Made by a program: the position numbers and the translations under genes. This document shows, piece after piece, positions 114 to 63,528 of a stretch of DNA of 64,000 nt. Where the stretch lies: the NCBI RefSeq assembly GCF_008728965.1, contig NZ_VSMC01000003.1:1-64000 (forward strand), given 5' to 3'. This stretch comes from Heminiphilus faecis (GTDB taxonomy: Bacteria > Bacteroidota > Bacteroidia > Bacteroidales > Muribaculaceae). Positions within the stretch are counted from its first letter, which is position 1. Every line of letters begins with the position of its first letter. Below the pieces are notes generated by a model. The model was not told the origin of the DNA. It was given only the letters and a program-made list of their open reading frames with translations, and ran no database searches.

Positions 114-767
114 TTACCGAATCATTGCTAAAATATACCTATGATTTTTTCTATGAATAAATTGTGCGGTATATAAGCCGATAAAATCAGAAGAGTCAAG
201 ACCTAGTTGTTGCCTTTTGGATTTTCGCTCTTGCTGACTAAGCGGATGAAATTTAAGCAAATCGACACCAACTCCATTTATTAGAAATATATCTCCACTT
301 GATAATTTACTTTCTTGAGCCCTATAATAATCTTCCATATTAATTGTCACAAGAGTATCAGTAAAACGTGCCAATATTTTCTCTATAGAATAATATATAA
401 CCCAATTTTTTAATGGAGCTCCATCAAAAAAATGAAACCCATGGGCTGTATATACAACTTTTGCCCCATTCTTTCGAGCTTTAATAGAAGCTAATCTACC
501 TAAAAAAGCACCCATTGGCGTGTGAACATGAATTATATCATAATTATTACACTTAATTATTTCTTTTAGTTTTATATATGCTTTGATATTCTTTAGAGAA
601 AATGGAGCTCGCTGAATCTCAATATCAAATTGATTATCAACTATACCTACTTCAATCCCAGGAGATGCATTGTCCACAATCCATCCCTGCTTTTTAAACC
701 ATTCCATATATGGAGCATTGAATTTTGAAAACCCCTTATGATTGGCGACAAACAAAACTCTCTTCAT
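114..767 (-). CDS. Glycosyltransferase family 4 (GT4), C-terminally truncated
   Basis: Resembles EpsD-like GT-B glycosyltransferases of capsule loci. The N-terminal Rossmann domain is intact: start MKRVLFVANHKGF, a HVHTPMGAFLGRL segment near residues 80-92, YTAHGFHFFDGAPL near 106-119, and a GVGVDLLKFHP linker near 165-174. The family is usually about 370 residues and the C-terminal nucleotide-sugar-binding domain should follow, but the frame stops after 217 residues, just after the start of that domain (YTAQFIHRKNH). It lacks the donor-binding E-x7-E region and is probably inactive, unless the stop is an assembly error. It begins one base after the upstream glycosyltransferase ends, so it belongs to the same operon. 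Confidence 0.75.
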   Translation of the reverse strand: MKRVLFVANHKGFSKFNAPYMEWFKKQGWIVDNASPGIEVGIVDNQFDIEIQRAPFSLKNIKAYIKLKEIIKCNNYDIIHVHTPMGAFLGRLASIKARKNGAKVVYTAHGFHFFDGAPLKNWVIYYSIEKILARFTDTLVTINMEDYYRAQESKLSSGDIFLINGVGVDLLKFHPLSQQERKSKRQQLGLDSSDFIGLYTAQFIHRKNHRYILAMIR

Positions 768-768
768 A

Positions 769-1497
769 TCAATTATTGATATAAGCTTCTAATAGATATT
801 TACGATACATCAATTTATAGCCTAACGAATTTGTCGACTTCTGACCGATATTAATTGATGCATTATCAGAATGTCTACGGTATAATAAATATGGTTCTTG
901 AATAAGGCCAATTTTCCCATGTTTAAGAGCCATTAATCCAATCCAAATATCATGCATTAACGGTTGTTTCGGAAATGGTAAAATATATTGCAGTAGGTTC
1001 TTACTAAATGCCATACAACAACCTAAAAACGGTGTTCTTATTAAAGTATTAATTAGTGTTGGTGTTTTAATCGGCTCTAAATTTATAGACATATCCATTT
1101 TTTGCAAAGTTTCATCTACAGGTATATGATTAGTAATCACCAAATCATATTTTTCTAATGCCTTAACACATTCCGTGACTTTATTTGGTAACCAAATATC
1201 ATCCTGATCTGCCAAAAATATATAATCACCGTTTGCGTGTTTTAAAGCATTTTCCGCATTCCGTCCCACCCTGAAACAAATTTCCATAGTATCTCTAAAA
1301 CCACCACTTTTAGCCGGATTATGATAAACTTTTATTCGACAATCATTAAATGCAGAAATAATGTCTAATGTACTATCGCTTGATCCATCATCAGATATCA
1401 CAACCTCATCATTATCACCCAATTGTGATATTATCGATTGGATTTGAGCCTTGATGAATTTTTCACCGTTATATGTTATAATACAAACTGAAATCAT
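769..1497 (-). CDS. Glycosyltransferase family 2 (GT-A fold)
   Basis: A 242-residue GT-A glycosyltransferase, expected to add one sugar to the lipid-linked capsule repeat unit on the cytoplasmic side of the membrane. It begins MISVCIITYNGEKF, has the nucleotide-binding DDGSS at residues 36-40 and the metal-binding DQDD at 97-100 followed by IW, a pattern common in rhamnosyl- and galactofuranosyl-type transferases. The start lies 29 bases inside the end of the upstream polymerase gene, indicating translational coupling. The donor and linkage cannot be read from sequence. It is AT-rich like its capsule neighbours. Confidence 0.85.
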   Translation of the reverse strand: MISVCIITYNGEKFIKAQIQSIISQLGDNDEVVISDDGSSDSTLDIISAFNDCRIKVYHNPAKSGGFRDTMEICFRVGRNAENALKHANGDYIFLADQDDIWLPNKVTECVKALEKYDLVITNHIPVDETLQKMDMSINLEPIKTPTLINTLIRTPFLGCCMAFSKNLLQYILPFPKQPLMHDIWIGLMALKHGKIGLIQEPYLLYRRHSDNASINIGQKSTNSLGYKLMYRKYLLEAYINN

Positions 1498-2692
1498 TTT
1501 TTTGTATATTGTAATGTATTATTTTATAAACCAGAACCATTAACATCAAAAACAGAGGGCTTATTAGCAACGGATTAGTTCCGACCAATATAAATGTTGA
1601 AAAGAAAGCAATACACAATGTTTTATACTGCTTCAACTTTGATTTCTGCAAAATCAAAATTTCCCAAATTATTATATAATAAAAAAAAGTCGACCATATA
1701 AAACCAAATTTACGAATCGTATTAATATGATCTATTTCAATATTATCTGCTAATCTTCCAAAACCGGATGTATAAAAACGAGTACCTAATCCTTGTCCTG
1801 TAATAATAAAACGAGGATTATCACTAAACAATTGAATTACGGATTCAAAATGTTTTATTCTTACGATTGTTGTTGCAGATTTGCCGGTTAGAGCGTTTAC
1901 AAAATAATTATAAAACACATCCAATTCGTGCCAATAAGATACAATTAAGAATATTGAACAAGACAAAATAATCATAATTAGCTTCATTTTTTGAGGCTTA
2001 ATATATAGATGATTATTCTTACGATGAAAAATATTTATTTCTAAAAATATCCAGCATATTATAGCACCAATTGTTGCCGATTTTGAAAAACTTAATAATA
2101 TGCCGACAAATATAATTAACGATTTATAGTATTGTTTTTTGCTATAGAAAATTATAAATGCAAAATTAAGGAATAATACACTTTTAAAGTATACATTAGG
2201 AAAATATGAGCCTTCAATATCTTTATTACCAAAAAATCCCATATTATGGTTTATCATAAATCCACTTATCAATTCTATAAGAGACGGATTTACTATTAGT
2301 AATAAATATATTACGATTGTTAATATTGCAATTATCAACAACGAATTATTAAATACATAAAGGGCTATATTTATATTATTTTTATCCAATAATAAAAGTA
2401 AAAAAAAAGCAGGAATAAAAGGCGTTATTTGAATTATTGCGCTATTTAATTCTGCATTATTACAGATCCCCCAAATAAACGATAATATAGGACATATAAT
2501 AAATAATATGCCAAATGAAATTAGACTTTTATTAAACGGAAATCTTCGTTTTAATAATATTACAAATAATGCAAATGTATAAGATGCATATTTTATGCCC
2601 AATCCTCCTCCCAAATCAATAACTGTTGCAAAAAACATCAATACAACAGCAATATCAACAATTTTATATTTTAATATATGGCTTAGTGCCAT
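1469..2692 (-). CDS. Wzy-like O-antigen/capsule polymerase
   Basis: A very hydrophobic 407-residue protein with about ten predicted membrane segments and a large periplasmic loop near residues 260-330 (around GQGLGTRFYTSGFGRL). This layout, one per capsule operon and next to glycosyltransferases and a flippase, is that of Wzy polymerases, which join repeat units in the periplasm. The primary sequence of Wzy proteins is poorly conserved, so the call rests on topology and context. It overlaps the glycosyltransferase genes on both sides (10 bases upstream, 29 downstream). Confidence 0.7.
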   Translation of the reverse strand: MALSHILKYKIVDIAVVLMFFATVIDLGGGLGIKYASYTFALFVILLKRRFPFNKSLISFGILFIICPILSFIWGICNNAELNSAIIQITPFIPAFFLLLLLDKNNINIALYVFNNSLLIIAILTIVIYLLLIVNPSLIELISGFMINHNMGFFGNKDIEGSYFPNVYFKSVLFLNFAFIIFYSKKQYYKSLIIFVGILLSFSKSATIGAIICWIFLEINIFHRKNNHLYIKPQKMKLIMIILSCSIFLIVSYWHELDVFYNYFVNALTGKSATTIVRIKHFESVIQLFSDNPRFIITGQGLGTRFYTSGFGRLADNIEIDHINTIRKFGFIWSTFFYYIIIWEILILQKSKLKQYKTLCIAFFSTFILVGTNPLLISPLFLMLMVLVYKIIHYNIQKNDFSLYYNI

Positions 2693-3633
2693 GAATATAT
2701 TCTTTTTACAATCGTCGGAGAAAAAATACCAATCAAGAATAAAATATTCTTCAGATAACTATTTTGCTTACTAAATAGTGCATCTCGTGCGACTTTTTTA
2801 GCATTATCACATTCATTGATAAAACAATATTTTATAAATAGAATCCAATCAAGATTATTTTTTGTTATCTTTTGCATTTGTTTGTTTGAATACGTCAAAG
2901 AAAAATAATGCGCAATTTCACGATAACATAACCCAAAATTAATCATCTTAATTTTTTCTTCGCAATGACTTAACGAATTTGGTAAAATTCTATATGTCCC
3001 AGTGGTATCAGGTATGAATTTAATCTTACTCATTGCAGAAAAATACAGCCATACAGGATAATCCCCCATACTCCATCCTTTACATTCTGGCTTAATTTCT
3101 TTAAGATACGACATATAAACATCGAATCTCATCAGGACAGAAAGAGTTGGAATCGTATTATTTTGCAATATATCATCAAACGTTTCCAGTGGCCCCCCAA
3201 AATCATTTATATATTTTGAAATACATTGCTTATATTGCTTTACGCGAGTATAACACATTGCATAATCAGGATGTGCTTCGAGAAAACTAACCTGCTTTTG
3301 AAGTTTATATGGATCAGTCCAATAGTCATCTCCTTCACACATAGCAATATATTTTGCATCAATGTCAACAAGAGCATTGCGTTTTATAATATCTAGAGAT
3401 CCATCATGTTTTTTATATTGATTCTCTGCCTCATAAATTGGCTTTATAATTTGTGGATATTTATTAGCGTATTCTCTAATTATCTCAATAGTACCATCTA
3501 TTGAACAATCATCATGAATTAATGCAACAAATTTAAAATTTGTTTTTTGTTGTACAATTCCATCCAAACATTTTTTTATATAATTACAATGATTATACGT
3601 CATTGTCCATATAGCAACCAAAGGCTTCTTCAT
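2683..3633 (-). CDS. Glycosyltransferase family 2
   Basis: GT-A glycosyltransferase of about 316 residues. From the chosen start, MKKPLVAIWTMTYNH leads into the N-terminal strand, HDDCSIDGT is the first nucleotide-binding motif and CEGDDYWTDPYKLQKQV is the metal-binding region typical of capsule GT2 enzymes. An upstream in-frame ATG at 3762 would overlap the preceding gene by 74 bases and add residues unlike the family, so the ATG at 3633 is preferred; it leaves a 55-base gap after the cobalamin-protein gene. Likely adds a sugar to the capsule repeat unit; donor unknown. Confidence 0.8.
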   Translation of the reverse strand: MKKPLVAIWTMTYNHCNYIKKCLDGIVQQKTNFKFVALIHDDCSIDGTIEIIREYANKYPQIIKPIYEAENQYKKHDGSLDIIKRNALVDIDAKYIAMCEGDDYWTDPYKLQKQVSFLEAHPDYAMCYTRVKQYKQCISKYINDFGGPLETFDDILQNNTIPTLSVLMRFDVYMSYLKEIKPECKGWSMGDYPVWLYFSAMSKIKFIPDTTGTYRILPNSLSHCEEKIKMINFGLCYREIAHYFSLTYSNKQMQKITKNNLDWILFIKYCFINECDNAKKVARDALFSKQNSYLKNILFLIGIFSPTIVKRIYSWH

Positions 3634-3688
3634 CCAATTCGAATTTAATTTTAACTCTATATTTTCGAAATATTGTATAGTAACATCA

Positions 3689-5551
3689 TTACATATTAAT
3701 GGATGATAGGATACTTCTATATCTGCTTGGCGTATATATAACCTCTCCTTTGTCATCAACAACCTTTACTCCTCCATCTATTACAGCTGTTTGCCAACGA
3801 GTAGCTTCCGGATATTCTTTTTTTTCATCAAGAATATATGGAACGGGGAAAAAACCATTCTTAAACACTGTATAAAGACCTTCAGGAGTATATAGATTGG
3901 GAATATTTGCTTCTAAAATCTGTATTGATTCTCTACACTCTTCCAATAAAAGATTATATCGATTCATAATCTCTAAATCATGCATTGTATCAAATGTTTT
4001 TCCTTTTGATTTTAAATCTCTATATGCTTTTAAAGAACCAAGCGTAATTTTTATACTCTCCTCTATTATATCAGGAGTAGCTAATCGTACAGCTTCTGAG
4101 TAGCTTACGACATGTATTATTTCTGGACTATTAGGATTATTCGGTTCTATATCGTCCATTAATGCTGTAATCTCAGCCAACTGAACTTTTGATTTTTCAA
4201 GATTCGGCACGAAATAATCCAATCCAGCCCTTAATTGAAGATGCACATGAAATCCAGCATCCTCCAGTTCTCGGATAAGCTTCAACATAACCCGACCTTT
4301 AGACAAATCTTCAATACCCCATGTCTGCTTCGGAGTATTTAACATATTTTGCAAAATAAGGTGCTTTATCCCATATTTCTTGGCAGTCTTTGCGGCAAGA
4401 TATGCTGAAATAACATATGTCACGTCATCTCCACCTCTAAAAGAGAAATGGTGAGACACATTTGGTTCTAATGGCTTACCTGTAGTAGATATATATTTTA
4501 TCGCCTCGATATGTTCTTTTAGATTATTTATTAATGAATTATTACCACGACCATCTATTTTACAGAACCACCAATATGATAGTGCATGCCACGATATATT
4601 CAAGCATCGTTCATGCATACAAGCCATCCATGGCACATTTTTTGTCCCTGCATATGTCCTAACAAGCATAGGCTTAGCCAAATCAGCAATTTCCTTATAC
4701 TCCAACTCAGTATTAATCGGGACACCTCCTCCGTTTGACATTCCATCCCAATCTTCGCCAAAATGCTGCTGCGTTAATTGAGAAGAGCCTATTGATAATA
4801 CATCCAATAATCTTGATTTTGCCAATTGAACAACCCATGAGCTATATTCTTTTAGAGCCTCATTCCTATTAGAAGAATATGGACCTGCATGAACTCGAAT
4901 CAATGGTAAAGTACCTTTTAATTTACAATATTGTAATCTACGAATAAAAGTATCATCATTTTTCCCACATTCCGGATAACCGTAATGATCAATTATAGGA
5001 GTATCTTTATAAGAATAGTTTTCTATAAATTTATACGCGAACTCTTGCCGGGCATTATCATAAGGATGTCTGTATAATAATGATTTTGGAAATAAAGCTT
5101 CTGGAATATAATACTTTTTTAAAGATTCAATAGAAGATTCTCCTCCTATAAAATAGACAATATCATCCTTGATTTTTTGTTTAATCAATTCACACGTATC
5201 AGGCAAACCTGAAAAAACTATTAATTTAAGAAATCCGCCCTCTCTAATTGTAAGTTTTTCGCTATTTAATAAATGATATAAACGACAAAAATATTCCAAT
5301 CCATCTTTAGGATCTAATCTATAGCTAAAAGATAATACCGTAATATTATTTCCTTTGAGCCATTTAGTTATTCGGCTTAAATTATTTAATTTTTCAGGAG
5401 ACTCAACTGCCCTCATTACCTCTTTGGGAGCAATATTAATCTCAAAACCACATTCACGCAAAAGATTTGACATAGAAGCCAACCCCATAGTATGAACGTC
5501 AACCTCCGTCTTGAGAAATCCAAATTTATCTTTAGAATTAATCTGCTCCAT
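3689..5551 (-). CDS. Cobalamin-dependent mutase-like protein (B12 domain fused to glutamate-mutase-like barrel)
   Basis: A 620-residue protein. Seen: residues 18-23 read DVHTMG, matching the DxHxxG cobalamin-binding signature in which His binds cobalt; SFSYRL follows near 74-79 and IGGESS near 135-140, in the order of the SxL and GG elements of B12 domains. The remaining ~450 residues include MSNGGGVPI, VRTYAGTKN and LSYWWFCKIDGRGN, which I judge similar to the glutamate mutase epsilon chain, a TIM barrel that converts glutamate to 3-methylaspartate. Here both parts would be one chain, whereas classical glutamate mutase has separate S and E subunits. The start codon shares one base with the stop of the opine dehydrogenase gene (TAATG). 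Reaction and substrate are inferred; a non-mutase cobalamin protein is possible. Confidence 0.6.
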   Translation of the reverse strand: MEQINSKDKFGFLKTEVDVHTMGLASMSNLLRECGFEINIAPKEVMRAVESPEKLNNLSRITKWLKGNNITVLSFSYRLDPKDGLEYFCRLYHLLNSEKLTIREGGFLKLIVFSGLPDTCELIKQKIKDDIVYFIGGESSIESLKKYYIPEALFPKSLLYRHPYDNARQEFAYKFIENYSYKDTPIIDHYGYPECGKNDDTFIRRLQYCKLKGTLPLIRVHAGPYSSNRNEALKEYSSWVVQLAKSRLLDVLSIGSSQLTQQHFGEDWDGMSNGGGVPINTELEYKEIADLAKPMLVRTYAGTKNVPWMACMHERCLNISWHALSYWWFCKIDGRGNNSLINNLKEHIEAIKYISTTGKPLEPNVSHHFSFRGGDDVTYVISAYLAAKTAKKYGIKHLILQNMLNTPKQTWGIEDLSKGRVMLKLIRELEDAGFHVHLQLRAGLDYFVPNLEKSKVQLAEITALMDDIEPNNPNSPEIIHVVSYSEAVRLATPDIIEESIKITLGSLKAYRDLKSKGKTFDTMHDLEIMNRYNLLLEECRESIQILEANIPNLYTPEGLYTVFKNGFFPVPYILDEKKEYPEATRWQTAVIDGGVKVVDDKGEVIYTPSRYRSILSSINM

Positions 5552-6618
5552 TACATAATTATTTTTTTTATCTCATTTACTGAATATTTCTCTAAACCTA
5601 AATTTATTAAAGATCTTCCTTCTTTTCTAAAATTTTGGTCTAGCAAAAATGAACATATCGTGATTAATGCATCAAAAATAGGAGTAGGAACCCCAGCTAC
5701 TTTACCTAATTCAGAAAGGGGCAAAATACCAGTAGGTATATCTTCAGTTATTTGCCTACAGTTTATAGTTTTAGGAGCTAAGATATCATAATATGCGGGA
5801 TTATTCTGCATTCTCTCACACAATGTATCACCACATACTCCAACATATGCATCTGCAACCCAATCTTTTGCAGAGATTGGGCTATAACCATATGCTTTAG
5901 CTACAGCAAGACGCTCGTTATCAGCCTGTTCTATTAAGCGAGCAAGACCGCTTGTCATATCACGATAAAAATAGAACTGATCTCCTCGTTCAATAGCCGC
6001 CTCATTAAAAAGTACAACACATGGATGAAATATTGCCCCAATATTTTCAAAACTCGTTTCTAAGACATTTTTTGCTGGATAGAAACATTTGAAGAATAAT
6101 TCTAGGGTTTTAATAACAATCGATGTATCAGAAGAAGGGAGCGCAGATATCAAAACTTTTTCTTTTATACCAATTATATTTACCTTGCCATTTTCAATTA
6201 AACGACACGCAAAAACAAGAGTCTGTGCTTCTGCTATAAAAATCTTTTTTGAAATGCCAACTTTATTTAAAGTATTTCTGAACTCTAAGGCCCCTCCCGT
6301 TCTACCCGGATTCAAAACTATAATTTGATTATCTTTAAGATAGGGAGCGATTTGTAGTGCGATTGAATTATGAGCTATTGCAGTAGTTGCAACCATTATC
6401 AAATCAGCATCAAATACAATTTCATCTATTTTGGTTGATATTTTAGCAAAGAAGCCTCTAAAATTAGCTTCTCCAACAAGCTCGATGAATCCTTTTTTCT
6501 TTAACTGCTTAACTCTACTCTCGTTACGGTCATAAATCTTAACATTATGACCACAATTAGATATCCATGCAGCCAATGCCTGACCACCATTGCCCGCTCC
6601 TATTACTGCAACATTCAT
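5551..6618 (-). CDS. NAD(P)-dependent opine (octopine/nopaline-type) dehydrogenase
   Basis: A 355-residue protein starting MNVAVIGAGNGGQALAAWI, a Rossmann dinucleotide site with GxGNGG as in opine dehydrogenases. The C-terminal helical domain holds ENIGAIFHPCVVLFNEAAI, matching the region with the catalytic His of the NAD/NADP octopine/nopaline dehydrogenase family. The family couples an amino acid to a 2-keto acid by reductive amination to give an N-(carboxyalkyl) amino acid. It overlaps the ATP-grasp gene by four bases (ATGA) and its stop shares a base with the next start, so it is made with those enzymes. Opines are known constituents of some bacterial O-polysaccharides, which fits a capsule locus; other reduced substrates are possible. 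Confidence 0.75.
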   Translation of the reverse strand: MNVAVIGAGNGGQALAAWISNCGHNVKIYDRNESRVKQLKKKGFIELVGEANFRGFFAKISTKIDEIVFDADLIMVATTAIAHNSIALQIAPYLKDNQIIVLNPGRTGGALEFRNTLNKVGISKKIFIAEAQTLVFACRLIENGKVNIIGIKEKVLISALPSSDTSIVIKTLELFFKCFYPAKNVLETSFENIGAIFHPCVVLFNEAAIERGDQFYFYRDMTSGLARLIEQADNERLAVAKAYGYSPISAKDWVADAYVGVCGDTLCERMQNNPAYYDILAPKTINCRQITEDIPTGILPLSELGKVAGVPTPIFDALITICSFLLDQNFRKEGRSLINLGLEKYSVNEIKKIIM

Positions 6619-7838
6619 AATTGATTTATGATTTCATGATTAACAATATCTACACCATCAGCACTTATTCCCCTTATTATCCGATTAAACTTATTCCTTT
6701 TTTGTAAAACTTCGATAGAATTCTTGCCTGAAATCAAGACACCGCCTAATCTATCACCACTTGTTAAAGATTGTGTAATTTTCGAAGGTAGCATTTTATA
6801 TTGAAAATAGAAATCAATCGTATTATCTTGTAATAACTGTTCTATACCGTAAACCGATTCTAATATTCCATTTTTACAATAAATATAATCAACCTCTATA
6901 TTTTCAGCCGATTGATTAACTTCAATCTTTTTTGAATCAACCCCAGTTACCAAATCGACATATTTAGACATTATGCAGACTCCAGATATAACTTCAATAA
7001 GTTTATATTTTGAGCCGCCTCCCATGCGAGCACTAAATTCTATTACAAAAAATTGTCCATCATCTTCTATAAATTGTACTAAAAGAGGTGAATTGTCTAT
7101 GCCAAAGGAATCAGCAATTCGTTGTCCTATATTTTCTATATCTCTATTTTGAAGCTCTGTTGTTGCCGGATATACACTTTGCACTATTGTAAAAGCGCCA
7201 TTGTCAGGTATTTTTTTTGATTCCGTAACTGATAGAAGTTGTGCTTTACCATGCTCTATATAAAAGTCTGCTGAAAATTCTTTACCATGCTTAAATTCCT
7301 CAACAATAGCTGTATTTGTTCTACTAATTTTTAAAGCATTTGTAAGTGCATTTATTAATTCAGTTATATTTTGAGCTTTTTTCACTCCTTTCGAACTATT
7401 ACAGTCTGCCGGTTTTATAACTACTGGATAGCTAATCTCTATATCGTCTATTTCTCGTATATTTTTAATAATGTAATATTTGGATGTAGGAATTCCAACC
7501 TCCCACATCTTCTTTTTCATATACGATTTATTCGTTACTTCTTTTGCCGTTTCTGCCGATATATATGTAGGCAGTCCTAATTCTTCCGAAATTTCAGCCG
7601 ATGTCAATAAAGCTTGATCAGTACATGCAGTAGTAATTAAATCTGGACGTATCTCTTTAGCAATCGCTCTAACAAAATCTAAATCTAAGGTACTTCCAAC
7701 AAAATGCCTACCAACATAGTTCTTTGCCGGTGGATTTTCATAATAATCAATTAAATAGACATAATATCCCCGTTTCTTAAGTTCTTTAATAAGCGCAATC
7801 TGATCATAGCCTCCAGCTAAAACAATAGCTTTCTTCAT
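6615..7838 (-). CDS. ATP-grasp domain carboxylate-amine ligase
   Basis: A 407-residue ATP-grasp enzyme. The chosen start gives MKKAIVLAGGYDQIALI, a pre-ATP-grasp Rossmann domain, and overlaps the aminotransferase stop as ATGA; a start 24 bases upstream would overlap more. The ATP-grasp core shows YPVVIKPADCNSSKGV, VEEFKHGKEFSADFY and FVIEFSARMGGG (Mg-binding E). Members activate a carboxylate as an acyl phosphate and attach it to an amine, as in D-Ala-D-Ala ligase or biotin carboxylase relatives. Between an amino-sugar transaminase and an opine dehydrogenase, an amide bond between an amino acid or opine and a sugar or second amino acid is likely (inference). Confidence 0.75.
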   Translation of the reverse strand: MKKAIVLAGGYDQIALIKELKKRGYYVYLIDYYENPPAKNYVGRHFVGSTLDLDFVRAIAKEIRPDLITTACTDQALLTSAEISEELGLPTYISAETAKEVTNKSYMKKKMWEVGIPTSKYYIIKNIREIDDIEISYPVVIKPADCNSSKGVKKAQNITELINALTNALKISRTNTAIVEEFKHGKEFSADFYIEHGKAQLLSVTESKKIPDNGAFTIVQSVYPATTELQNRDIENIGQRIADSFGIDNSPLLVQFIEDDGQFFVIEFSARMGGGSKYKLIEVISGVCIMSKYVDLVTGVDSKKIEVNQSAENIEVDYIYCKNGILESVYGIEQLLQDNTIDFYFQYKMLPSKITQSLTSGDRLGGVLISGKNSIEVLQKRNKFNRIIRGISADGVDIVNHEIINQL

Positions 7839-8947
7839 TTTTTTATTATTTTTATTACGCATTGAATATCCTTGTCCGATAAATCATGATGCATCGGCAA
7901 GCAAATTACTTCTGCAGCCATACTGGTGGCAACAGGAAGATTATTTTTACCGGCGGACGGGAGACCACGGTATGTCGAAAACTCACTAATAAGCGGATAG
8001 AAGTAGCGGCGACCAAGTACGTCATGCTCACGCATTTTGAAATAGAGTTCGTCGCGCGTCATACCATACTTTTCAGCATCAATAAATATGGGGAAATAGC
8101 TATAGTTGTACGTTACGTCGGGACGGTGCTCAAACATGGAAATGCCTTCTACATCAGCCAATCCTTCACGGTACATGGTGTCAACTTTACGTCGCGCTTC
8201 AATTGCAGAATCGACATGACGAAGATTCAGCAGACCATAGGCAGCACGCACTTCATCCATTTTTGAATTAATGCCGGGAGCTACAACTTCGGTCTCTCCG
8301 GCGAAACCGAAATTTTTAAGATAATCTATGCGCTGTTTGGTCTTGGCATCATGGCATACCAGCGCTCCCCCCTCAATGGTATTGTAGGTCTTGGTTGCAT
8401 GAAAGCTAAGTGTGGATATGTCGCCTGCTTTCAATACAGACTCACCGTTAACTCTGACACCAAAAGCATGGGCTGCATCATAGATAACCCGAAGTCCATA
8501 CTTATCGGCAATGGCCTGAATAGCCTCCGTATCACACGGATTACCATAGACATGAACCGGCATTATGGCTGTAGTTTTAGGCGTTATGGCTGCCTCTATC
8601 TTATTGGGGTCAAGATTACCGGTCGATGGATCGACATCGACAAATACAGGCTTTATTCCGTTCCACCACAAGGAATGTGTTGTAGCGACAAAACTGTATG
8701 GAGTGGTTATTACCTCGCCGGTTATTCTCAAGGCCTGAAGCGCAGTTATCAGAGGCAGTGTACCGTTGGTAAATACACTTATGTACTCGACACCAAGATA
8801 TTCACAAAGAGCCTTTTCAAGGGCTTGATGATAGTATCCGTTGTTAGTAATCCACTTACGACTCCATATATCTTGAAGATACGGAATAAACTCCTCTAAC
8901 GGAGGGAGCAACGGTGATGTGACCGTAATCTGTTCATTACAGCTCAT
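7835..8947 (-). CDS. DegT/DnrJ/EryC1 sugar aminotransferase
   Basis: A 370-residue PLP-dependent sugar aminotransferase. It shows FTNGTLPL near residues 59-66, the cofactor-binding YDAAHAFG near 156-163 and the Schiff-base lysine in SFHATKTYN (K186). The family transfers an amino group from glutamate to a nucleotide-linked keto sugar. The sequence resembles VioA/QdtB-type enzymes that make dTDP-4-amino-4,6-dideoxy sugars or the 3-amino isomers, but the position aminated cannot be settled by eye. It starts 12 bases after the flippase gene ends and ends in a four-base overlap with the ATP-grasp gene. The amino group made could be the site acylated by that ligase. Confidence 0.85.
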   Translation of the reverse strand: MSCNEQITVTSPLLPPLEEFIPYLQDIWSRKWITNNGYYHQALEKALCEYLGVEYISVFTNGTLPLITALQALRITGEVITTPYSFVATTHSLWWNGIKPVFVDVDPSTGNLDPNKIEAAITPKTTAIMPVHVYGNPCDTEAIQAIADKYGLRVIYDAAHAFGVRVNGESVLKAGDISTLSFHATKTYNTIEGGALVCHDAKTKQRIDYLKNFGFAGETEVVAPGINSKMDEVRAAYGLLNLRHVDSAIEARRKVDTMYREGLADVEGISMFEHRPDVTYNYSYFPIFIDAEKYGMTRDELYFKMREHDVLGRRYFYPLISEFSTYRGLPSAGKNNLPVATSMAAEVICLPMHHDLSDKDIQCVIKIIKK

Positions 8948-8959
8948 TTATAAATTTAT

Positions 8960-10393
8960 TTACTTTGTTTTGACAAATGACATAAGCTCGCGCAGATCTG
9001 ACGAACGTGTAAGTTTTGTTACAATGAAGAAATAAAATATACCAGTAATTATACCGACGGATAGGCTTGTCTTATTGTCGGGTAACAAACCGACCGTTAT
9101 CCAGACAACCGCTCCCATTGATAAAGAATAAGCAAGCGACGGCAGTAAATCGCGCATCTGAGTCAAGAAACCGACTTGAAGCAATTTACCGGTATAATGG
9201 GTGTTTATTATAAGACATATCAAAGAACTCGCTACCGTACCCCAACACATAGCTACAAGCCCAAGCGGCACAGTGACACATAGGATGACCACACCTATAC
9301 ATTTTTTCCACACCTCAAGTTTAAGGAAAAGATCACTACGCCCTTTTACCTGAAGCAAGTTGAGGTTTATTGAATGTATCGGATACCACATCATATTAAA
9401 GCATATAATCTGAAGCAGTATCGCAGCAAAACTCCATTTATCAGTCAGAACAACTACAATAAACGGATGAGCCACAGCCGCAAGCCCTATCATCAACGGG
9501 AAAACGACAAATGCCGAAAGCCGCAAAAAGCGCCTGTATACATCTCTCAACCGATTATCATCATTCTGTATCGTGCACAGGACCGGAAACGTAACCCTCT
9601 GTATTATACCGGATACATTTGATGACGGAAAGTCTGCAAATTGCTGCGCCCGAGTATAATACCCAAGGTCTGATGCATTAAAAATTTTCCCTATAACAAT
9701 CAAATAAACATTGCGGTATATAGTATCAATTATACCAGAAATGGCAAGCTTTGAACCGAAGCCGAAAAGCTCTCTAAAAGAATTCCATGAATATATCCAC
9801 TGCGGACGCCATTTAGAAAAGGCCCAAAGTAATACCACATTGGCGGCCAAATTAGACAGTTGATACCAGACTATAGACCAGACTCCATAGCCAGTATAGA
9901 CCATCGTTATGCCGACTACTCCGGAAACCACCGCTGCTATAAGCGAAGCCTTTGCTTGCGTCTTAAAATCAATATTAACCGTCAACAGTGCCCGCTGTAC
10001 AACAACGAAAGAGTTGATTATGACACTTAATGATATAAGACGAGTAAGCGGAGTAAGAATTGGCTCATTATAAAATCGGGCTATTATAGGAGCACACAAA
10101 TAAAGGATGATGTATAGAGCAATCCCGGCACATATATTAAAATAAAACACGGTAGAATTGTCAACCTCAGACCGATCTTGCTTACGGATGAGTGCTTGAG
10201 AGAAACCACTGTCAACCAACGATTGCGACACAGCAATAAACACAGTAAGCATTCCTATAAGACCATAGTCATCAGGCGTAAGGACCCTTGCCATGATAAC
10301 CATGACAATAAAAGATATTCCTTGTACAGAAAAGCGCTCGATACTGCTCCATACAGTACCTTTGAATGTCTTTTGTTTAAGAGATTCAGACAT
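8960..10393 (-). CDS. Lipopolysaccharide/capsule flippase (Wzx, MOP superfamily)
   Basis: A 477-residue integral membrane protein with about 12-14 hydrophobic segments. The N-terminus MSESLKQKTFKGTVWSSIERF leads into GISFIVMVIMARVLTPDDYGLIGM, the signature of the MOP-superfamily polysaccharide export family found in Bacteroides capsule loci. It would move the completed lipid-linked repeat unit across the inner membrane for polymerisation by the Wzy-like protein encoded downstream. Its start overlaps the end of the acyltransferase gene by 8 bases, so translation may be influenced by the reading state of that gene's poly-G tract. Confidence 0.9.
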   Translation of the reverse strand: MSESLKQKTFKGTVWSSIERFSVQGISFIVMVIMARVLTPDDYGLIGMLTVFIAVSQSLVDSGFSQALIRKQDRSEVDNSTVFYFNICAGIALYIILYLCAPIIARFYNEPILTPLTRLISLSVIINSFVVVQRALLTVNIDFKTQAKASLIAAVVSGVVGITMVYTGYGVWSIVWYQLSNLAANVVLLWAFSKWRPQWIYSWNSFRELFGFGSKLAISGIIDTIYRNVYLIVIGKIFNASDLGYYTRAQQFADFPSSNVSGIIQRVTFPVLCTIQNDDNRLRDVYRRFLRLSAFVVFPLMIGLAAVAHPFIVVVLTDKWSFAAILLQIICFNMMWYPIHSINLNLLQVKGRSDLFLKLEVWKKCIGVVILCVTVPLGLVAMCWGTVASSLICLIINTHYTGKLLQVGFLTQMRDLLPSLAYSLSMGAVVWITVGLLPDNKTSLSVGIITGIFYFFIVTKLTRSSDLRELMSFVKTK

Positions 10394-11443
10394 TTACTTT
10401 TTTATATCCTTTAATCTTGGAGAAGATTGGTCTCTCAATAAAATAATACCGTAGCAATTCAAGCATAGTACAGATCACATATACTGAAACTACAGAAAGA
10501 AGACAATGTAGCCATAAATAATCATGGGTCAAGTACTCTGTATTTTTTAAGAAATCTTTCCAAAGCCACTGCCTCATGATATCGTTATTGGCATGCCATA
10601 ACAATACGCCGAATGCAATACCCCCCCCCCCACATAATTTACTGATTTTATGCATCTTATATTTAGCCGTAAAAAATAAAGGAATATTGACACTGCCAGC
10701 AAGAATATATTTATTTTATTTGCATCACCTATTGCAAAGCACCATATACTTTGAGATTTATCAAATTTAAATACAATAAAATCGAGTAATAATATTTCTA
10801 CCCACGTCAGTATTACAAAACCAATTGAAATCCAACCAAAATGCCAATTCAACTTTGACAAGTCATATTTACGTATATATGCTCCAACACAATACATCGT
10901 AAATGCCCACCCCATATAATGCCATGTTTTTTGATTAAAAAACGTATGGAGCATACAAAAATATATCAACAGAACCAATAGCAAATAACTATACTCCTTC
11001 TTATTAAAGGATTTTAAAGCCTTATTTATAAATGGCGATAACAAATAAACTACAATATAATTAGATATAAATGATTCTGGCACATCAAAAATAAGAGGTA
11101 TTATTTTCAAATAATCCTTAAAGCCATATGAATAACCTATTGCGCTTAAAAATATACATACCAAAATATTTATTGATAAAATCTGAAATACCAACTGAAA
11201 TACTTTTCGCCACTTCATAGAACTATTAATCATAAAGTAGCCCGATATCAAAAAGAATATATTTACTCCGACTTTACCTCCTATAGACATAAATTGTACA
11301 AATAACATATTCCCGGTTAATATCTTTGGATTAATCAATTCTACAAAACCGGAATTTACGCAATAGTGGTGCAACACAATTATGAACATTGCTATAATAC
11401 GCAGAAGTTCAATATTAGACTGACGCTTTATTTCCAGTGCCAT
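10386..11443 (-). CDS. Membrane acyltransferase (acyltransferase 3 family), currently out of frame at poly-G tract
   Basis: The upstream part (11443 to 10574, 289 codons) starts MALEIKRQSNIELLRIIAMF, matching the first membrane helix of OafA-like acyltransferases, with VLHHYCVN and GVNIFFLISGYFM following. After SVNYVGGG it runs out of frame and stops. The downstream part, in another frame from about 10631 to 10386, continues GGGGIAFGVLLWHANND and ends ELLRYYFIERPIFSKI, the usual family C-terminus. The two parts meet at a run of 11 G on the coding strand (10621-10631); 9 or 12 G would restore one frame of about 350 codons. The family O-acetylates or otherwise acylates surface glycans. The gene is likely switched off in this copy. 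Confidence 0.8.
10621..10631 (-). repeat. Poly-G tract (11 G on coding strand), putative slipped-strand switch
   Basis: Eleven consecutive C on the plus strand, read as G in the acyltransferase gene. With 11 the frame reads V-G-G-G-V-L-H-S and soon stops; with 12 or 9 it continues as V-G-G-G-G-I-A-F-G into the rest of the enzyme. Tracts of this length are prone to slippage in replication. Homopolymer miscalling in assembly is the main alternative. Confidence 0.75.
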
Positions 11444-11529: not shown

Positions 11530-12144
11530 TTATTCGGGGAGGAGGCGGATGAATTCGGGGGCGACTTCGACGGCGACGGTGAGGAGTTGGGCGAGGTCGA
11601 TGAGGAGGTGGCGGCGACGGGTGCCGCGGGCCTTGAGCAGGCGTCCTTCGAGACCGTCGAGAGGGCCGCCGACTATGAGGACACGGCGTCCGTACATGTC
11701 AGGGGTTATCTCATCGGGACTGTAGTAGCGGGGCTCTTCGGTGGCGCGCACGGCAAGTATGAAGCGCTGCATGTCGACCCGGCGGACGGTCATGGGTGTG
11801 CGATAGCCGCGGCCGCGTTCGTAACGGTACTGTAGTGTGGGAGTAGCCTCAACCACAGGGTCGAGCTCATCGGCACATGCATGAACAAAGAGCAGGTCGG
11901 GAATGCAAGGCACCTCTTCGCGCTCACGGCGCCCGGATTTGGTGACAAGTCGCCACCGCATGGGAGTAAATACTTCAAAGCCGGATTCCCGCAGGAGCTT
12001 ATATGCGGGCATTTTGGCATTGGCACGTTTGAGGTCACGCATGGCATACCATTGCGTGCCATCCTCGGTGACTTCAACGCCGTTGTGACAGTCATCAGAG
12101 ACCTCGGCCGTAGCCGTGTCGGAAAGTGATGTTTCGGAAAGCAT
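11530..12144 (-). CDS. UpxY-type capsule transcription antiterminator (NusG-like)
   Basis: A 204-residue NusG-family protein. After a ~28-residue leader, TQWYAMRDLKRANAKM opens the NusG N-terminal (NGN) domain, followed by ESGFEVFTPMRW; the C-terminal part GRRVLIVGGPLDGLEGRLL is KOW-like. In Bacteroides, UpxY proteins are encoded first in each capsule operon and prevent early termination in the long untranslated leader of their own operon. Position fits: it is the first gene, about 180 bases downstream of a consensus promoter, with the capsule genes following. No upxZ-like gene follows; the next gene is the acyltransferase. Its base composition is clearly GC-richer than the capsule genes it precedes. 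Confidence 0.85.
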   Translation of the reverse strand: MLSETSLSDTATAEVSDDCHNGVEVTEDGTQWYAMRDLKRANAKMPAYKLLRESGFEVFTPMRWRLVTKSGRREREEVPCIPDLLFVHACADELDPVVEATPTLQYRYERGRGYRTPMTVRRVDMQRFILAVRATEEPRYYSPDEITPDMYGRRVLIVGGPLDGLEGRLLKARGTRRRHLLIDLAQLLTVAVEVAPEFIRLLPE

Positions 12145-60771: not shown

Positions 60772-60908
60772 TAAAAAATCTCACTGCATATCTATAGATT
60801 TCGATTCTAAGACATTCTTGTAATGACAACGTTGCGCTGTCACAGTCAGGAGCAAGATTGTTAATGTATTCAAGGCAATGACGGACATATGGTAAAATGT
60901 ATATATTA

Positions 60909-62187
60909 GTTGCAATTTACTTACTTTTTATTACTTTTGTACTATAGGATACAGCCGAGGTGGCCTCAATGGGATTGATTGAAATGTTGTAATTTGCTTA
61001 CTTTTTATTACTTTTGTACTATAGGATACAGCACGGGTGCTGCGCGAGCTGGCAGTTGGTGTGTTGTAATTTGCTTACTTTTTATTACTTTTGTACTATA
61101 GGATACAGCATTTTGAACACGAAAAAGACTAGAAAGAAAGTTGTAATTTGCTTACTTTTTATTACTTTTGTACTATAGGATACAGCCATGCAGGCGACCG
61201 TCGCGCCTATCATGCAGTTGTAATTTGCTTACTTTTTATTACTTTTGTACTATAGGATACAGCTCGCTGCCGTCTTATGACGATACCGGCGAAGTTGTAA
61301 TTTGCTTACTTTTTATTACTTTTGTACTATAGGATACAGCGGCGGTCAGAGCGTCGAATTGTTCCTCGTCGTTGTAATTTGCTTACTTTTTATTACTTTT
61401 GTACTATAGGATACAGCTTCCGGCTTAGCAGAACAGAGGTCGCTTGTGTTGTAATTTGCTTACTTTTTATTACTTTTGTACTATAGGATACAGCCATTTT
61501 CGGAAGCGTTTAATATTTCTGCTTGTTGTAATTTGCTTACTTTTTATTACTTTTGTACTATAGGATACAGCCTGTTTTTTCGGGGTGTTGTAGTCGTTCT
61601 GGTTGTAATTTGCTTACTTTTTATTACTTTTGTACTATAGGATACAGCTTCCGGCTTAGCAGAACAGAGGTCGCTTGAGTTGTAATTTGCTTACTTTTTA
61701 TTACTTTTGTACTATAGGATACAGCGCTCGTGCGAAAGATTAAAAAAGTTCCTGCGTTGTAATTTGCTTACTTTTTATTACTTTTGTACTATAGGATACA
61801 GCGATGGTGAGGGTTAATACATAAGGTGGCGGGTTGTAATTTGCTTACTTTTTATTACTTTTGTACTATAGGATACAGCTTAAAGTGAAACATTAAAAAT
61901 AGTTGTCTAGTTGTAATTTGCTTACTTTTTATTACTTTTGTACTATAGGATACAGCCCGACTTCCAGGCCGTTGTCAAACGTAACAGTTGTAATTTGCTT
62001 ACTTTTTATTACTTTTGTACTATAGGATACAGCAATCGGGATTTATGTTCATCATAACAATTAGTTGTAATTTGCTTACTTTTTATTACTTTTGTACTAT
62101 AGGATACAGCCAGGAACTTCGTTACACCATGAAGGTTCAGGTTGTAATTTGCTTACTTTTTATTACTTTTGTACTATAGGATACAGC
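60909..62187 (+). CRISPR. Type II-C CRISPR array, 17 repeats of 47 bases, 16 spacers of 30 bases
   Basis: Repeats start at 60909 and recur every 77 bases; each begins GTTGTAATTTGCTTAC and ends CTATAGGATACAGC. Repeats 2-17 are identical; the first differs at positions 5 (T to C) and 11 (G to A). All spacers are exactly 30 bases. Spacers 7 (61418-61447) and 10 (61649-61678) are the same except their last base. Within each repeat, TTG at positions 2-4 and TACTTTTG at 24-31 are 19 bases apart, fitting a Bacteroidetes promoter. The GTTGT start and the terminator at the right end argue that crRNAs are read rightwards, convergent with the cas genes. Confidence 0.97.

Positions 62188-62293: not shown

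Positions 62294-63528
<1,235 letters not shown>

Follow-up and report, generated by a model that had tools for sequence, protein, structure and literature searches.

A putative cobalamin-dependent mutase linked to an opine dehydrogenase in a capsule operon of Heminiphilus faecis

Gene content of the cassette

The stretch analyzed here, referred to as the window, comprises the first 64,000 nucleotides of contig NZ_VSMC01000003.1 of Heminiphilus faecis (Muribaculaceae; assembly GCF_008728965.1). On its minus strand, from position 8947 down to 3689, lie four consecutive genes for a sugar aminotransferase (AT), an ATP-grasp ligase, an opine dehydrogenase (ODH) and a cobalamin (vitamin B12) mutase-like protein, termed MUT in the following. 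An initial annotation of the sequence had described these genes as a cassette with overlapping stops and starts and had proposed that it decorates the capsule with an unusual opine. The four genes are indeed present at this place, and the junctions read ATGA, ATGA and TAATG.

3689..5551, minus strand: MUT, a fused B12-binding and glutamate-mutase-like barrel protein of 620 amino acids (assigned from relatives and a structure model)
5102..5551, minus strand: N-terminal B12-binding domain of MUT, approximately residues 1-150, with the motif D18-x-H20-x-x-G23
3713..4963, minus strand: barrel of MUT, residues 197-613, matching glutamate mutase E
5551..6618, minus strand: ODH, 355 amino acids (PF02317; closest solved relative 1bg6)
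6615..7838, minus strand: ATP-grasp ligase, likely an amide-bond former (PF13535; start placed by the ATGA overlap)
7835..8947, minus strand: AT, a DegT/DesI-like sugar aminotransferase (DegT/DnrJ and DesI profile matches; 2po3)

The longest open reading frame (ORF) of the ATP-grasp gene spans 6615-7862; within it, an ATG at position 7838 overlaps the stop codon of AT. Pfam scores bore out the families assigned earlier to AT, the ligase and ODH. ODH matched Octopine_DH (PF02317; 138 bits, cut-off 30) and is a near full-length relative of 1bg6 (E 2.5e-71). Its residues H198, R288 and D293, which we take to be the catalytic His/Arg/Asp set of opine dehydrogenases, were kept in 68/69, 69/69 and 69/69 MUT-linked ODHs, respectively. 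The ligase matched ATP-grasp_4 (PF13535; 60.0 bits, cut-off 27) and resembled the L-amino acid ligase 3vot (E 1e-13), while AT belongs to the DegT/DnrJ/EryC1/StrS family (PF01041, 335 bits) and resembled 2po3 (E 5e-70).

Family and predicted fold of MUT

Searched with the window MUT, neither Pfam nor NCBIfam gave a match at E 0.01, nor did PDB sequences at E 0.1, and the B12-binding domain was matched only weakly (E 0.015). Its putative nature as a B12-dependent mutase draws on its relatives, on profile comparison and on a structure model, and the label “cobalamin mutase-like” of the initial annotation is upheld by the predicted fold, which is that of a B12 mutase. D18, H20 and G23 of the DxHxxG cobalamin-ligand motif were invariant in 59/59 MUT sequences, 33 of which matched PF02310 with E values up to 0.1. 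In the comparison of the model with solved structures, matches to IcmF reached residue 2, the small subunit of HCM (4r3u_C) was matched at E 0.01, and the model showed the barrel fold of glutamate mutase E.

The general B12-binding domain aside, no Pfam or NCBIfam model naming the whole protein matched MUT convincingly. The glutamate mutase E family (PF06368, cut-off 26.6) matched neither the window MUT nor, in one scan, any of 59 relatives; two relatives, L031 and L040, reached it below the cut-off, the better being L040 with 20.7 bits (E 1.6e-4). An NCBIfam corrinoid-protein model was matched at E 1.1e-4 by one or two of 15 MUT members. A profile of 15 relatives gave only chance-level matches to PDB sequences, and profiles set against two glutamate mutases agreed only weakly (E 0.08 and 0.15). 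When 65 MUT rows were compared with six rows of glutamate mutase E (GlmE), one of them a 220-residue fragment, the match reached E 5e-5 (probability 67), covering MUT residues 357-608 only and omitting L185, which gave no row by the motif rule; with six divergent rows alone the value was E 0.09. A joint alignment of a chosen subset of MUT rows with GlmE, excluding the fragment, had about 14% identity. In this low-identity, alignment-dependent pairing, R66, R100 and R149, which we assume to form the arginine claw of glutamate mutase, corresponded to H221, Q261 and Y300 of MUT.

Distribution and gene linkage

A scan of a species-genome collection turned up 329 stretches encoding a MUT relative; the 80 best were retained. 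MUT is rare and patchily distributed, occurring in 6/295 genomes of the order, 12/397 of the family and 5/395 of the phylum, and in none of the 13 other genomes of the same genus in the family sample. Relatives were detected in Bacteroidota, Bacillota, Spirochaetota, Aminicenantota and Armatimonadota, in one Azoarcus and in others. Collections of plasmids and phages contained no MUT match at E 0.001.

Linkage was counted by tblastn at 88 MUT loci, considering genes on the MUT strand within 5 kb; the counts cover the 72 loci at which MUT is flanked by 1.5 kb or more in each direction, and the other 16 were dropped. ODH was present at 65 of the 72 flanked loci (75/88 over all loci) and an ATP-grasp gene at 45 (49/88 over all loci), or at 51 when AsnB-like proteins were included. 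An AT-like gene was found at 21/72 loci, a PglE-like aminotransferase at nine, a PglC-like transferase at 15 and a GT2-like gene at 20. Among the seven flanked loci without a standard ODH, L028 carries a diverged ODH-like gene, the genomes of L088, L089, L093, L100 and L107 have a PF02317 gene elsewhere, and L110 alone has none; six of the 16 dropped loci also showed no ODH. Altogether, PF02317 was present in 16 of 18 genomes queried for it. In the order sample it occurred in 22/295 genomes and in 6/6 of those with MUT (8.6e-8, kinship not corrected for). Conserved co-occurrence of the four genes had been suggested as a check of the proposed cassette. It was strong for MUT and ODH and good for an amide ligase, and it held only in part for the complete set, given the lower counts of AT-like and PglE-like genes.

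Pairwise distances of MUT and ODH were correlated across 69 loci (r = 0.73) and within 35 Bacteroidales loci (r = 0.78). These figures, like the conservation of the ODH residues, use a greedy-ORF set with 69 ODHs, which misses ODHs lying under longer spurious ORFs. For MUT and the ATP-grasp ligases, pooled from several subfamilies, r was much lower, 0.36 (47 loci) and 0.20 (34 loci), and for MUT and AT it was 0.66 (16 loci) and 0.23 (13 loci). We read MUT and ODH as one functional unit, to which the ligase and AT are exchangeable additions.

Sixteen genomes of the order have PF02317 without MUT. Their ODH-like proteins, examined in seven of these genomes, shared 20-31% identity with the best reference ODH, and we read them as probable members of other subfamilies. 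More distant ODH-like proteins (20-23% identity) were seen in L194, L195, L197 and L198, in genomes without MUT, with what we take to be nucleotidyltransferase-like genes nearby in L194, L197 and L198. In the Aminicenantes loci L083, L163, L165 and L168, ODH adjoins presumed TldD/PmbA-like genes. Locus L028, built like L050, contains at 6645-9741 a diverged pair of a mutase-like (26%) and an ODH-like (22%) protein, perhaps a second chemistry.

Operon context

Family scans of the neighboring genes confirmed that the cassette lies between a flippase and glycosyltransferases. A Wzx-type flippase, an acyltransferase and a UpxY-family antiterminator are encoded upstream, and glycosyltransferases downstream. 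Position 1 of the window is also the first of the contig, and the visible operon stops short of its downstream end.

11530..12144, minus strand: UpxY-family antiterminator at the head of the capsule operon (NF033644, 133 bits, cut-off 100)
10574..11443, minus strand: acyltransferase (Acyl_transf_3), 289 amino acids (family scan)
8960..10393, minus strand: Wzx-type flippase (family scans)
2683..3762, minus strand: GT2 glycosyltransferase (family scan)
1469..2692, minus strand: membrane-type ORF, possibly a polymerase as judged by eye from the sequence; matched by 0 families
769..1497, minus strand: glycosyltransferase-like ORF, named from position and by eye
114..767, minus strand: N-terminal part of a GT4 glycosyltransferase, short (217 amino acids) and near the contig start (family scan)

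Elsewhere in the window, positions 60904-62187 and 62629-63528 form a probable CRISPR array with a 77-base period, of which about 47 bases are shared; it adjoins an ORF that, read by eye, we presume to encode Cas1.

Acceptor sugar and cofactor supply

AT probably makes the amino sugar that serves as acceptor. At loci L108 and L113, RmlA- and RmlB-like genes adjoin the module, and the genome of the window organism encodes an RmlB above the cut-off at another site. From the DesI-like AT and the Rml genes, and from a second set of loci with a PglC-like or PglE-like gene, we infer a 4-amino-4,6-dideoxy sugar as the acceptor. Flagellin-like genes occur within six genes of MUT in L104 and L108.

Adenosyltransferase-like neighbors were found at 3/87 loci: L103 and L118 encode a CobA-like protein after MUT, and L060 encodes a PduO-like one. 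Judged from gene content, these neighbors lend modest support to a use of adenosylcobalamin by MUT. The window organism itself encodes a cobalamin adenosyltransferase (PF01923). Scans of the window and of other loci gave no cobalamin riboswitch at the gathering score. The names CobA, PduO, RmlA/B, PglC, PglE, flagellin and, below, ABC transporter are our presumptive labels for these neighbors, in part read by eye.

Contexts outside surface glycans

An AsnB-like synthetase adjoins MUT in L038, L039, L040 and L119, and in L117 such a gene lies 3.4 kb from MUT. The N-terminal Cys of the AsnB-like protein is replaced by Ala, Ala and Ser in L039, L040 and L119, respectively, and kept in L038 and L117. 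In L119, a cyclic di-AMP (c-di-AMP) riboswitch (RF00379) directly precedes the gene series ODH-AsnB-MUT. The same element directly precedes an ODH gene unlinked to MUT in the related, Tissierellia-type loci L170, L173, L174 and L176.

L119, 7086-7217: c-di-AMP riboswitch
L170, 9096-9229: c-di-AMP riboswitch
L173, 2032-2167: c-di-AMP riboswitch
L174, 7253-7384: c-di-AMP riboswitch
L176, 9064-9193: c-di-AMP riboswitch

At these five Bacillota loci RF00379 scored 102-113 bits against a cut-off of 38, and a terminator-like hairpin with a U-run lies between aptamer and ODH. Each of the four Tissierellia-type genomes has a single RF00379 copy above the cut-off, and G1084 (L119) has two. G1082 (L109) has two copies elsewhere and none at the ODH locus, and G1083 (L116) has none. 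RF00379 did not exceed the gathering score in the window or in 30 of the 35 loci scanned. In that lineage the riboswitch argues for a possible osmotic role; it carries no direct information on the capsule.

Sugar context takes eight label changes on the MUT tree, at least six of them forced by well-supported branches; this is a quick tree with an arbitrary root, on which L028 sits on a very long branch. The spread of sugar contexts over the tree means that use at the surface was gained or lost repeatedly. As a separate observation, two tandem T-box leaders lie between MUT and a transporter, which we take to be an amino-acid ABC transporter, in L089 (12001-12504) and L105 (2860-3404).

Proposed pathway and alternatives

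We propose that MUT and ODH build a rearranged N-(carboxyalkyl) amino acid which the ATP-grasp ligase links as an amide to a capsule amino sugar, a reading on which we are evenly divided. It builds on the observed genes, their overlaps and linkage, the co-divergence of MUT and ODH, the ODH residues, the presence of RmlB and an adenosyltransferase, and the predicted MUT fold. MUT would be an adenosylcobalamin-dependent mutase that has a glutamate-mutase fold, includes a B12 domain of its own and differs in its substrate pocket. Jointly with ODH it would yield a rearranged N-(carboxyalkyl) amino acid of small size, with MUT perhaps acting before ODH on its putative substrate. The ligase may then activate one carboxylate of this product and form an amide on the 4-amino group of a 4-amino-4,6-dideoxy sugar, probably dTDP-Qui4N, made by the DesI-like AT, before a glycosyltransferase would set the decorated sugar into the capsule repeat unit. 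The overall claim of the initial annotation is thus supported in part: gene linkage and mutase fold speak for it, and that an opine is attached to an amino sugar is something we infer.

Several results weigh against this proposal. The window MUT taken alone has no significant Pfam or NCBIfam family match, and AT scored 301 bits with the NCBIfam model for DesI, below the cut-off of 650, yet this was the best of its 17 NCBIfam matches. Because the claw positions align to H221, Q261 and Y300, so that the claw arginines are unconserved, the MUT substrate, as far as this alignment tells, is not simply glutamate. The loci were chosen by similarity to the window MUT, which favors like contexts. Of the flanked loci, 21/72 have no same-strand ATP-grasp or AsnB-like gene within 5 kb, so sugar attachment is not a universal fate (in one of the 21, L104, an ATP-grasp and an AT-like gene lie beside MUT on the other strand). 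The MUT-ODH pair is no invention of capsule operons. It frequently occurs away from sugar genes, a few times with a c-di-AMP riboswitch in control, so its product probably has a wider role.

That MUT and ODH are at root a compatible-solute (osmolyte) pathway which the capsule recruited later is compatible with the decoration proposal, and we consider it a serious prospect, if somewhat short of even. It is favored by the riboswitch and the following hairpin and U-run upstream of ODH in L119 and the four Tissierellia-type genomes, by this copy being the sole RF00379 above the cut-off in each of these four, and by the repeated changes of sugar context on the MUT tree. However, the element occurs at only 5/35 loci, all in Bacillota and four of them related, and is absent from the window, from the Spirochaetota and Aminicenantes loci scanned and from the separate MUT locus of the four Tissierellia-type genomes; L109 and L116 have ODH without it, even though the L109 genome has two copies elsewhere. 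A reverse order, in which MUT rearranges an opine that ODH has already formed as an ordinary N-(carboxyalkyl) amino acid, with all other steps as proposed, would agree with the presence of ODH nearly wherever MUT occurs and with the changed glutamate-holding residues. The invariant R219 and R298, each two residues before a claw position, could suit an N-substituted substrate, but at about 14% identity the equivalence of residues is unsure, and we find this order doubtful.

The remaining alternatives concern the type of reaction. Lysine 5,6- and ornithine 4,5-aminomutases hold pyridoxal phosphate (PLP) by a lysine in the B12 domain; the 59 MUT sequences have no invariant lysine there, which makes it unlikely that MUT is such a PLP- and B12-dependent aminomutase instead of a carbon-skeleton mutase. 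Opine dehydrogenases are reversible, and MUT lies beside the presumed amino-acid ABC transporter in L089 and, by gene sizes, in L105, as would suit a catabolic module that degrades opines or unusual amino acids and sits in the capsule operon incidentally. Against this stand the overlapping genes inside the operon, the ATP-grasp ligase near MUT at 45/72 loci and the different composition of a true glutamate mutase operon (L121), and we hold it to be very improbable.

Comparison with known systems

In contrast to glutamate mutase GlmES of Clostridium cochlearium (1cb7/6h9e), in which the B12 domain is a separate small subunit, MUT carries this domain fused at its N-terminus, and the claw arginines are unconserved. 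MUT is linked to ODH, whereas the glutamate mutase locus L121 has what we take to be methylaspartate ammonia-lyase-like genes. PF06368 was matched by 0/21 relatives and in 2/18 and 6/118 other genomes, two sets that share one genome. ODH shares near full-length homology with N-(1-D-carboxylethyl)-L-norvaline dehydrogenase (CENDH; 1bg6) and the His/Arg/Asp set with CENDH and octopine dehydrogenase (3c7a), but is encoded here alongside a B12 mutase-like protein.

The PylBCD pathway to pyrrolysine has a similar logic of mutase-type rearrangement, ATP-grasp amide ligation and a Rossmann dehydrogenase. PylB, however, is a radical-SAM protein, whereas MUT has a predicted B12-mutase fold and, read by eye, no CX3CX2C motif. 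The window ligase also matched PylC only weakly (35 bits versus 248).

Some O-polysaccharides carry alanopine or N-(1-carboxyethyl)lysine as amides, and the likeness to the proposed product lies in opine-type acids amide-linked on surface polysaccharides. To our knowledge, no B12 mutase takes part in these pathways, and none was recognisable for opine-bearing O-polysaccharides among the openly licensed literature matches listed. These matches, to which most subscription journals do not belong, also held no description of the set of MUT, ODH, ligase and AT. Beta-lactam synthetase and CarA close N-carboxyalkyl amino acids, and the AsnB-like partners beside MUT recall them, with the Cys replaced in three of the loci; in sequence these partners lie closer to asparagine synthetase than to either 1jgt or 1q15, and L038 and L117 keep the Cys.

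Significance

MUT spans several phyla, usually together with ODH, though Pfam and NCBIfam offered no convincing match that names the protein as a whole. Tentatively, a hitherto undescribed pathway of two enzymes, a new family of B12-dependent mutases and a dedicated ODH, may produce a rearranged opine with several uses. In some Bacillota it would act as a compatible solute under c-di-AMP control, in others AsnB-like partners would amidate or cyclise it, and capsules and probably flagellin glycans would have recruited it repeatedly as an amide-linked substituent of their 4-amino-4,6-dideoxy sugars. This reading predicts an opine-type osmolyte in anaerobic Bacillota. If true, a B12 mutase would join the enzymes of surface-polysaccharide biosynthesis, amino sugars would gain a substituent of a new class, and B12 availability would be linked to capsule structure. 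Gut bacteria compete for B12, and the vitamin B12 supply of the gut would then be tied to surface antigen chemistry.

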